From Rhodothermales bacterium (GTDB lineage Bacteria; Bacteroidota; Rhodothermia; Rhodothermales; VXPQ01), in NCBI GenBank assembly GCA_951812345.1, contig OX638295.1:1498759-1562758 (forward strand): 64,000 nucleotides of DNA, written 5' to 3'. Shown in pieces: positions 6,350 through 52,165 of this stretch. Made by a program: the position numbers and the translations under genes. The notes below the pieces were generated by a model. It was not told where the DNA came from and did no database searches. It was given only the letters and a program-made list of their open reading frames with translations. Numbering within the stretch: position 1 is the stretch's first letter; each line of letters begins with the position of its first letter.

Positions 6350-6608
6350 GGATACTTCGATCAAAACCGCTTTGATCAGCGCTTCACGCTCGTGCGTAAA
6401 AGACATTGTATTTGCATCATTGAAATTAGCAAAAAACACCGCAGATTCGGGGCATCGCGGGCGTGAAGCGCCCTTCGGGAGGCAGAGAGGGGCACGCTGG
6501 CTGCGTCATTCCTCATTATGTGGGGCCTGCCACATTGCTTCGTCATTTCTTGCCAGCGCACCCCTTTCAGCCTCTGAACTTCGCGGATTTAATCGGAGTA
6601 TCCTTTAA
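6346..6608 (+). repeat. Dispersed intergenic repeat, full copy A
   Basis: The 263-bp element begins TTAAGGATAC and ends GTATCCTTTAA, which are inverted copies of each other. The core holds a hairpin: CGCTGGC (6495-6501) pairs with GCCAGCG (6552-6558), and TGTGG (6519-6523) pairs with CCACA (6530-6534). It is closely similar along its whole length to the copy at 47350-47609 and, in reverse orientation, to those at 7574-7822 and 20218-20477. It fills the convergent gap between the DUF4834-like gene and the TonB-like gene. No open reading frame in it looks real. Confidence 0.92.
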
Positions 6609-7573: not shown

Positions 7574-7822
7574 AAGATATTCTGATTAAGTCCGCAAAGT
7601 TCAGAGGCTGAAAGGGGTGTGCTGGCAAGGTATGACGAAGCAATGTGGCCTGTCCTCCACATAATGAGGAATGACGCAGCCAGCGTACCCCTGGCAGCCT
7701 GCTTCACGTCCACACTGCCCCGAATCCGAAGCGTTTTCCGCTAATTTCAACGATGCAATTATGATATCCTTTATGCACGAACGTGCAGTGCTGAGCGAAG
7801 TGGTTTTGATCAAAGTATCCTG
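7574..7822 (-). repeat. Dispersed intergenic repeat, full copy B (reverse)
   Basis: This 249-bp copy runs opposite to copy A. It begins AAGATATTCTGATTAAG and ends TTTTGATCAAAGTATCCT. Shared blocks with the other copies include GCAAAGTTCAGAGGCTGA, the GCTGGCAAGG/TGACGCAGCCAGCG hairpin arms, and the block ending GAGCGAAGTGGTTTTGATC. It lies upstream of carA in the divergent gap. Confidence 0.9.
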
Positions 7823-20169: not shown

Positions 20170-20477
20170 TTAAGGATACTCTGATTACGTCCGCTTGCTC
20201 GCATGACTTGCGTTTTGTAAAGGATACTCTGATTAATTCTGCAAAGTTCAGAGGCTTCGAGAAGCGCGCTGGCAAGGAATGACGAAGCAATGTGGCAGGC
20301 CCCACATAATGAGGAATGACACAGCCAGCGCGCTTCTCGAAGCCTACCGAAGGGCGCTTCATGTACGCCATGCACCGAATCACAGCGTTTTTCGCTGATT
20401 TCAACGACATCGTCATGATGTCCTGTGCGCACAAACATGAAGCGCTGATCGAAGTAGAATTAATCAGAGTATCCTAA
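20170..20477 (-). repeat. Dispersed intergenic repeat, composite copy C
   Basis: A 260-bp full copy (about 20218-20477, starting AAGGATACTCTGATTAATTC and ending TTAATCAGAGTATCCTAA) is preceded by a second left end at 20170-20217 that starts TTAAGGATACTCTGATTACG. The left end is thus duplicated in tandem. The core hairpin arms (GCGCTGGCAAGGAATGACG and its partner) are present. It fills most of the rluD-hisS gap and ends 27 bases before the hisS start. Confidence 0.92.
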
Positions 20478-37520: not shown

Positions 37521-37835
37521 TGGAACACTGAGATTGGCTTCGAATCATGTCTGAGGTGGCGCCTTGCGGCGGCGCGGCTTAGCTCCCGGCTCACTTCGCA
37601 ACATAACCCCCTCAAAATATAGCATACGGTGAAATCCATTCGGGCGCATATGGTTTCTTTGCGCTGTTTGCCGAGGACGGAAGCGGATATACCCGGAACG
37701 CGGTGAATACCAGCCCATCTCCCACCGCATAAACCCTTCACTCATAGAAACATGCGACCGGCATTCCCGTTTTTTCACAGGTTTATCTAACATCCGCCGG
37801 CTGCTCAGATGCGCTGCGCCCCGGATACCATTACA
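37521..37835. other. Divergent spacer without a recognised gene
   Basis: This stretch separates the leftward ligase-like gene from the repeat and lipoprotein gene on the right. Short open frames on the minus strand (to 37793) have an arginine-rich composition with no family features, so I do not call them. Promoter regions for both directions must lie here, but I cannot fix them. Confidence 0.5.
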
Positions 37836-37970
37836 CCCCTCTCAGCCTCCCGAAGGGCGCTTCACGCACGGAACGTGAAGCGCTGATCGAAGTGAACTTG
37901 ATCAGAGTATTCATATCCTTTATGCGCGAAAGTAAAGTGCTGAACGAAGTGGTTTTGATCAGAGTATCCA
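37836..37970 (-). repeat. Dispersed repeat, partial copy D with tandemly duplicated end
   Basis: The copy starts inside the core block (CTCAGCCTCCCGAAGGGCGC) and then holds the right-end block twice in a row. The first version (about 37868-37912) is GAACGTGAAGCGCTGATCGAAG to GATCAGAGTATTC. The second (about 37920-37969) is ATGCGCGAAAGTAAAGTGC to GATCAGAGTATCC. The second block overlaps the N-terminal codons of the TPR lipoprotein gene. Confidence 0.85.
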
Positions 37971-39214
37971 TACCTGTTATTTTCCCGGCTATCCTGATGG
38001 GCATGGCCGCAAGCGGATGCGCCCCGGTGGCAACAACCGCTGGGAATCAGGAAATCGTTTCGGATAACCTGTCCCCCTCCCCTGACCCTGCGGAGGAGGA
38101 AATGCGATCTGTCCGGGCCCAACAACTTTTTGTACGCGGCATGACTCGGGCGCAGACTGGTGACCAGGGCGCTGCACTCGATCTGTATGCCCAAGCGCTC
38201 CGTATGGCGCCGGAATCCCCCGCCATTCTTGCTGCATCGGCTGAGTTGTACGAGGCCGTTGGTGACTACGTTACGGCGCACTATCACCTGAACAAGGCGT
38301 ATACACTGGCCCCGGGAAACATACATTACGCCTTGCAACTGGCCAGTCTCTATACAGAAATGGGTGAGCGGGGTAAAGCTGCTCTTTTATACACCGACGT
38401 ACTGGAAAAGGCCCCGCACCATCTCGATGCGCGCTACGATCTGGCCCGTATCTATATGATAGAAGGCAAGATGGCGAAAGCGGTGGCGGCGTACGAACGC
38501 ATCCTCGAGGAAAACGGCGGGGATCGTGCCGTTCGACGACAGCTCCTGCATCTCTACAACCGGCTGGACGACATACCAAATGCGGAGCGCATACTGGCCG
38601 ATATGCTGGAAGACGAACCGCATAATGCCGACTTACGCCGCATCATGGCCGAAATACGCCTGAGGCAGGGGCGGCATGAAGAGGCCGCTGAAAATTTCCT
38701 GCATATCCTGGAGAAGAATCCGCACGATGTGCAATTGTGGGTATACGCTGCAAATGCACTCCGTGAGGCCGGAAGCTTCGTGTGGGCTGGGAATATGGCG
38801 GGCAAGGGGCTCGCGATTTTCCCGAACGCGCTTGATCTCCACAAGATCGCCGGGCATGCAGCAATGGATGCTTCCCGTAATGCCGAAGCGGTTCATCATT
38901 TTGAACAGGCGTTGCAGATCGCAACAGAGAAAGGTTACGGAAATGAAGCAGAAATCGGCAACCTCCGTTCAATGCTCGGTTCGCTGTACGCACGCATGGG
39001 TGATACCCAACGGGCCCGACACTCATACGAAGAGGCGCTCCGATACATTGGGGAGGCAGCAAAGCGTCCGGACGCCTCCGCAAAGGTGCTTGAAAACCTT
39101 GGGGATGTGTATGAAGCGTTGGGGCACAAACAATCTGCAACAGATGCGTGGCGACGGGCGCTGGAGATAGATCCGAACCGCCTGGAGCTACAAAAAAAAC
39201 TCGACCGAAAATAA
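37922..39214 (+). CDS. TPR-repeat lipoprotein
   Basis: The product of about 430 residues has a lipoprotein-type signal (FPAILMGMAASGC, lipid-attachment Cys near residue 33) and then about ten tetratricopeptide repeats, for example LFVRGMTRAQTGDQGAALDL and VYEALGHKQSATDAWRRALE. It probably acts as a scaffold at the outer membrane. The start is uncertain. Both candidates, ATG 37922 and TTG 37955, lie within the right-end block of repeat copy D, so the repeat has been incorporated into the gene start. The EnvC-like gene follows after 13 bases. Confidence 0.87.
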   Translation: MRESKVLNEVVLIRVSIPVIFPAILMGMAASGCAPVATTAGNQEIVSDNLSPSPDPAEEEMRSVRAQQLFVRGMTRAQTGDQGAALDLYAQALRMAPESPAILAASAELYEAVGDYVTAHYHLNKAYTLAPGNIHYALQLASLYTEMGERGKAALLYTDVLEKAPHHLDARYDLARIYMIEGKMAKAVAAYERILEENGGDRAVRRQLLHLYNRLDDIPNAERILADMLEDEPHNADLRRIMAEIRLRQGRHEEAAENFLHILEKNPHDVQLWVYAANALREAGSFVWAGNMAGKGLAIFPNALDLHKIAGHAAMDASRNAEAVHHFEQALQIATEKGYGNEAEIGNLRSMLGSLYARMGDTQRARHSYEEALRYIGEAAKRPDASAKVLENLGDVYEALGHKQSATDAWRRALEIDPNRLELQKKLDRK

Positions 39215-47349: not shown

Positions 47350-47609
47350 TTAAGGATACTCTGACCAAAACCGCTTCGCTCAGCGCTTCACGTTCGCAAC
47401 GCCCCGAATTCGCATATTTCCCGCTGATTCCGATGATAAAATCATGATATCCTGTACTTGCGAACGTGAAGCGCCCTTCGGGAGGCAGAGAGAGGCACGC
47501 TGGCCGTGTCATTCCTCATTATGTGGGGCCTGCCACATTGCTTCGTCATTCCTTGCCAGCGCACCCCTTTCAGCCTCTGAATCTTTGCGGATTTAATCAG
47601 AGTATCCTT
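47350..47609 (+). repeat. Dispersed intergenic repeat, full copy E
   Basis: The 260-bp element starts TTAAGGATACTCTGACC and ends TTAATCAGAGTATCCTT, an inverted pair. It is nearly identical to copy A from the block GTGAAGCGCCCTTCGGGAGG to the right end. The first base follows the HNH stop codon directly, and the copy ends 41 bases before the DUF3592-like gene. Confidence 0.93.
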
Positions 47610-52001: not shown

Positions 52002-52165
52002 CAGGGATACTCTGATTAAGTCCGCAAAGCCTTCCGCAGGGCGCGTCACGTCCGTGACGCCGTGAATTCGCAGTGCTTTTTGCTGATTTCAACGATGAAA
52101 CCATGATGTTCTGTACGCAAGAACGTGATGCACTGAGCGAAGCGGTTTTGATCAGAATATCCCTT
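52002..52165 (-). repeat. Dispersed repeat, internally deleted copy F
   Basis: This 164-bp copy begins AGGGATACTCTGATTAAG and ends GATCAGAATATCCCTT, so both ends are present. The core hairpin and the adjoining blocks are missing: GTCCGCAAAG is followed directly by CCTTCCGCAGGGCGCG. The block TGCTGATTTCAACGATGA matches copies B and C. It lies between the amidinotransferase-like gene and the glycosyltransferase gene, touching both ends. Confidence 0.88.

Follow-up and report, generated by a model that had tools for sequence, protein, structure and literature searches.

A repeat with two right ends runs into a TPR lipoprotein gene

The stretch analyzed here, a 64,000-nucleotide (nt) window from Rhodothermales bacterium (assembly GCA_951812345.1, contig OX638295.1, positions 1,498,759-1,562,758 of the forward strand), carries on its plus strand a gene for a TPR-repeat lipoprotein (Pfam TPR families; 37955-39214, 419 amino acids when read from TTG 37955), whose first codons overlap a copy of a short repeat element at 37836-37969. 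An earlier note on this DNA had described the right end of the repeat as duplicated in tandem and had proposed that the repeat supplies translated sequence to the lipoprotein. We compared the locus with the 2.82-Mb genome from which it comes (labelled G000) and with five relatives of the same genus, G001, G004 and G005 among them, the named relatives being Rhodothermales bacterium metagenome-assembled genomes (OX638293.1 and JANQSQ010000572.1). All five hold an orthologue of the lipoprotein, 66-83% identical, and in all five it is free of the repeat.

Against an nhmmer profile built from 30 full-length genome copies, the element copy, which lies in plus orientation, reads as consensus 112-146 (37836-37870, also assigned through repeat families; the left part, 1-111, is missing), followed by 213-253 (37871-37912) and then by 198-254 (37913-37969). 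The latter two segments, also recovered by repeat search, are right-end blocks that end in GATCAGAGTATTC at 37900-37912 and in GATCAGAGTATCC at 37957-37969, respectively, so that two right ends indeed lie next to each other, as had been noted from the sequence. A recent tandem duplication is nevertheless unlikely: the blocks are identical at only 34 of 44 positions and have different closest relatives in the genome, for the first block a copy near G000:1,733,988 that extends across the same internal junction and for the second block other copies. Both observations suggest that two element ends were probably placed side by side. Such doublets are not unique to the window, with about nine other end pairs, spaced by 23-52 bp, in roughly 1.2 Mb of two genomes. 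Just left of the insertion, at 37823-37828, the native gene holds GGATAC, which resembles the left terminus of the element and has counterparts in L002, L003 and L004; it may have guided a recombination yielding a copy without a left end.

The ancestral start codon is displaced

All five orthologues share a single start ATG at the same aligned place, reading MHCAPDTVTSFLSVILPAILIGMAASGC or MRRVRALVASLLTVALAAIPMGMAASGC. In the window the corresponding codon is ATG 37809-37811 (aligned with the orthologue ATG of MHCAPDTV.. or MRRVRAL..), which still has native sequence in front of it and about eight native codons behind it; further upstream, six-genome multiple alignments place a native 5' region (ATAGAAACATGCGACC...TTTTTTCA, 37744-37781) that is closely matched ahead of the gene in the relatives. 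The distance from this ATG to the codon for the lipobox cysteine (AASG-C, 38018-38020) is 209 nt in the window as opposed to 81 nt in the orthologues, and the net insertion of 128 bp places ATG 37809 out of frame with the remainder of the gene. Translation from it yields what is left of the original frame, a run of 25 codons (MRCAPDTITPLSASRRALHARNVKR, 37809-37886) that ends at TGA 37884-37886 inside the repeat. Comparison with repeat-free orthologues, put forward in the earlier note as a check on its proposal, thus finds a shared ATG that is displaced in the window and favours a start supplied by the repeat.

Candidate starts within the repeat

Of the three frames that leave the right end of the element, the one reading L-I-R-V-S is the open one with start codons. 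ATG 37922 and TTG 37955, both singled out earlier as candidates, are indeed in frame with the lipoprotein and inside the second right-end block, and the last bases of the repeat, TTGATCAGAGTATCC (37955-37969), do read L-I-R-V-S; further in-frame starts within the element are GTG 37892, TTG 37898, GTG 37937 and GTG 37949. We assessed candidates with the PROSITE lipoprotein rule PS51257, which places the lipobox Cys at residue 15-35 and asks for K or R within the first seven residues, and which is imperfect here in that the orthologues of G001, G004 and G005 lack an early K/R and do not match it. Starts at ATG 37922-37924, GTG 37949-37951 and TTG 37955-37957 (MIRVSIPVIFPAILMGMAASGC) put the Cys at residues 33, 24 and 22, respectively, and all three conform to the rule. 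The first in-frame ATGs after the repeat, 37997 and 38003, put it at residues 8 and 6 and do not; these ATGs beyond 37990 therefore give no functional signal peptide, the finding that would have spoken against repeat-encoded residues. The missing Shine-Dalgarno motif at the new starts is uninformative because such motifs precede starts about as often as they occur in shuffles (11.4% vs 11.2%, own genome, rough gene set).

The lipoprotein gene shows no sign of relaxed selection

No stop or frameshift occurs across the 400 downstream codons, and the ratio of nonsynonymous to synonymous substitution rates (dN/dS) is 0.17 against G005, the nearest relative, and 0.14-0.25 for other pairs. When changes are polarized, nonsynonymous and synonymous counts are 24:51 on the branch of the own genome vs 8:16 on the G005 branch. 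These values give no hint that selection on the gene has relaxed.

As a separate observation on this gene (38018-39214; compared with G005, G001 and G004), the own lineage has accumulated about three times more changes than the G005 lineage, an excess that holds for synonymous and nonsynonymous sites alike and that sets the gene apart from two other genes tested.

The repeat belongs to a mobile, probably IS5-derived family

The full-length element is about 254 bp long (copies of 253-256 bp; 30 full copies aligned), with ends GGATACTCTGAT and ATCAGAGTATCC and terminal inverted repeats GGATACTCTGATTAAGTCCGC, and a short form exists beside it. With up to one mismatch allowed, the 13-base end GATCAGAGTATCC occurs 157 times per strand in the whole genome, as compared to 0 and 1 occurrences of the reversed control, and the end pattern is present in five of the five available same-genus genomes. 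Within the window, the family reference is a full-length copy of 253 bp at 20222-20474 (plus strand; repeat search and nhmmer), and nhmmer finds further full-length copies at 6350-6603 and 47354-47607 (both minus), a near full-length one at 7576-7820 (plus) and a short-form copy of 158 bp at 52005-52162 (plus), in which the left end is fused to consensus 120-254. When 400 kb of the own genome are set against a partially syntenic stretch of G005, many lineage-specific insertions appear whose flanks are contiguous in the other genome. A 4-bp target duplication, TGAA, is clear at G000:1459414 against the empty site, and several copies have matching 4-bp flanks (TTAA, TTTA, TAAA, TATA, CATT); at many other sites the duplications are imperfect. 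The many lineage-specific insertions with empty sites, together with some 4-bp target duplications, support a mobile family. One old insertion (G000:1572442-1572695), common to the own genome and G005, reaches precisely to the ATG of a conserved gene, and the element thereby forms the immediate upstream region of that gene.

Target duplications of 4 bp are known for the IS5 group of insertion sequences. Three decayed pieces of IS5-family transposase (DDE_Tnp_1/transpos_IS5_4) are present in the own genome, at G000:1585043, 1185381 and 1211798, with a match to NCBIfam transpos_IS5_4 at E 1.9e-33 and NCBIfam scores below the curated cut-off. From the end of each piece it is about 180-205 nt to an exact GATCAGAGTATCC end; one of the three also has GGATACTCTGATT on its left side. 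Because these pieces carry the same ends, the repeat is probably an IS5-derived miniature inverted-repeat transposable element (MITE), and the pieces are likely remnants of its autonomous partner. Together with some 4-bp target duplications, the position of the transposase pieces before the exact end is what would link the family to IS5 insertion sequences and their MITEs; it differs in that only about the last 13-18 bases are common to the remnants and the miniature element, and in that an intact autonomous partner was not found: across about 1.2 Mb of two genomes, no pair of facing ends encloses an obvious transposase.

Displaced starts in two further genes

We surveyed elements in 800 kb of the own genome (about 28% of it), which contained 68 element clusters, and in one 400-kb stretch of G005. 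The own-genome sample holds two further displaced starts, both in the L-I-R-V-S frame. One belongs to an NlpC/P60 lipoprotein (L123, Pfam PF00877; G000:1266303-1266818, minus strand), with the element upstream at 1266819-1266947. The native ATG persists, but the frame it opens (MRNSPKNRRFC...) enters the element and stops there at a TGA. This TGA overlaps an ATG of the element (ATGA), and from that ATG MICKHDVLSEAVLIRVS-LTGVMLFLLVSGC leads into the gene, the orthologue in G005 having MRNPPKNRRFCLLTGLALFLLVSGC. The front of the signal peptide in this lipoprotein appears to be derived from the same element. The other case is a putative exported or outer-membrane protein (L127; G000:~1325527-1326429, minus strand; element at 1326430-1326682), where the start conserved in G005, G004 and G001 is now TTG TAT TAG at the insertion and the native start is lost, the frame being open through the whole 253-bp element. 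The dN/dS values of the two genes are normal (0.23 and 0.19, respectively).

Other element-adjacent genes were rejected as displacements. An asparaginase-like Tat protein (G000:1681527) keeps its native start position, with a GTG 3 nt after the element in the place where its orthologues start with ATG (MSISRRTF), and in several further frames that leave elements, for instance those of mutL, hpt-like, rplU-like and gltD-like genes (named from sequence), the native start follows just after the element. At the asparaginase-like gene, the truncated element (G000:1681446-1681527) ends 3 nt before the GTG and replaces the whole 5' leader.

Discussion

The sequence shows that a copy of the probably IS5-derived MITE has displaced the native start of the TPR lipoprotein gene. 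We consider it likely, with a probability of about 0.8, that translation now begins inside the right-end block and that the repeat codes for a new N-terminus. The copy lies after about codon 9 of the gene, with its right end facing the coding sequence, and according to this model initiation would occur inside the right-end block at TTG 37955, ATG 37922 or GTG 37949. The first 5 to 16 residues, ending in V-L-I-R-V-S or I-R-V-S, would be repeat-derived and give the signal peptide its basic, hydrophobic front, with the native hydrophobic core and lipobox (VIFPAILMGMAASGC) retained, and the element would be a chance donor of both a start codon and an open frame. More speculatively, ribosomes may still enter at the old ATG, stop at TGA 37884 within the element and reinitiate shortly downstream; stops and starts lie close together both in the NlpC/P60 gene, with its ATGA overlap, and in the TPR gene, where the TGA precedes GTG 37892 by a few nt. 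With the old ATG out of frame and the later ATGs leaving no signal peptide, codons of the repeat are very probably translated, in line with the original proposal and as supported by the orthologue starts, the displaced ATG and the signal-peptide rule.

Several points weigh against this model. Any of the candidate start codons may be the one used, and translation is predicted from sequence. The window copy has no left end and, as a consequence, no target duplication, and it may have arisen by recombination. All three cases of a displaced start were picked via open frames, a selection that gene-killing insertions would escape and that provides no measure of how often insertions are tolerated. 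Lastly, the selection test spans the whole branch since the split from G005 and could accommodate a very recent inactivation. An insertion that inactivated the gene would have left the open frame as a leftover and the repeat untranslated before a young pseudogene, its protein no longer made or exported; the native start codon can no longer be used, the insertion is confined to this lineage and could be recent, and expression of the gene is itself a prediction from its DNA. We nonetheless regard inactivation as unlikely, given the 400 codons without stop or frameshift, the match between the polarized changes on the two branches, the recurrence of the same architecture with an intact frame in the NlpC/P60 lipoprotein, and the fact that the element provides exactly what the displaced gene needs, namely a start and a basic residue.

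The remaining alternatives keep the gene active and place its start outside the repeat. Long, charged extensions before the hydrophobic core do not fit lipoprotein-class signal peptides, and translation from the original ATG 37809, which is kept along with the region upstream, would through ribosomal frameshifting inside the repeat give precisely such an extension, with about 70 residues, many of them charged, ahead of the hydrophobic core and lipobox Cys. The shift would moreover be needed before TGA 37884, and RNA folding over the start region is not unusual (z -1.29, not significant), which makes this scenario extremely improbable. Very unlikely, too, is a start downstream of the repeat at ATG 37997 or 38003, with the protein cytoplasmic or following another route: both codons are in frame, but they align within the signal peptide of the orthologues and leave the product without one, whereas all orthologues keep signal peptide and lipobox. 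Initiation within the repeat, our preferred model, could also be extended to the family as a whole, such that element ends would act as a portable translation-start cassette in which the outgoing frame of either end is open (...LIRVS) and equipped with built-in starts, ribosomes from displaced ATGs would terminate and reinitiate there, and genes whose first codons are hit, lipoprotein genes in particular, would repeatedly be rescued rather than killed. We offer this generalization tentatively and consider it rather doubtful.

N-termini encoded by miniature elements have precedents. RU elements are found in enterobacterial genes (reviewed in PMC2229807), and Yersinia YPO1552 takes its N-terminus and part of its predicted signal peptide from RU-2/YPAL (Delihas 2007, PMC2759123; PMC2229807). 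As in the window, an open frame leads from the element into the gene and the element takes the role of N-terminal and signal-peptide donor; the likeness drawn here is one of role, in other organisms and another phylum, and the Yersinia fusion was inferred from an annotated protein, whereas here five empty-site orthologues reveal the old start, its displacement and the new stop. Rickettsia palindromic elements (RPEs) are likewise mobile palindromic repeats with a frame translated as part of host proteins, to whose genes they fuse in frame (PMC10969869). RPEs insert in frame, modify the protein and encode a conserved peptide; the window copy, in contrast, shifts the old frame by a net 128 bp and would supply a new start, and only the end-encoded LIRVS recurs. 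Correia/NEMIS elements of Neisseria, in a different host group, are similar by description, with no sequence relation claimed, being miniature elements that occur in high copy number and mostly between genes, have terminal inverted repeats and are also fused to reading frames (PMC2229807). We found no literature on such repeats in Rhodothermales. While MITE-encoded N-termini are thus already known from Rickettsia RPEs and Yersinia RU-2/YPAL, what is new here is an element of another phylum and the availability of five empty-site relatives.

These relatives offer a before-and-after picture in which a mobile repeat would have taken the place of the start codon and signal-peptide front of a conserved gene, while the gene itself is not visibly lost. 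The picture suggests a simple route by which miniature elements may alter protein starts and secretion, and start-site prediction that ignores such elements will err in genomes rich in them.
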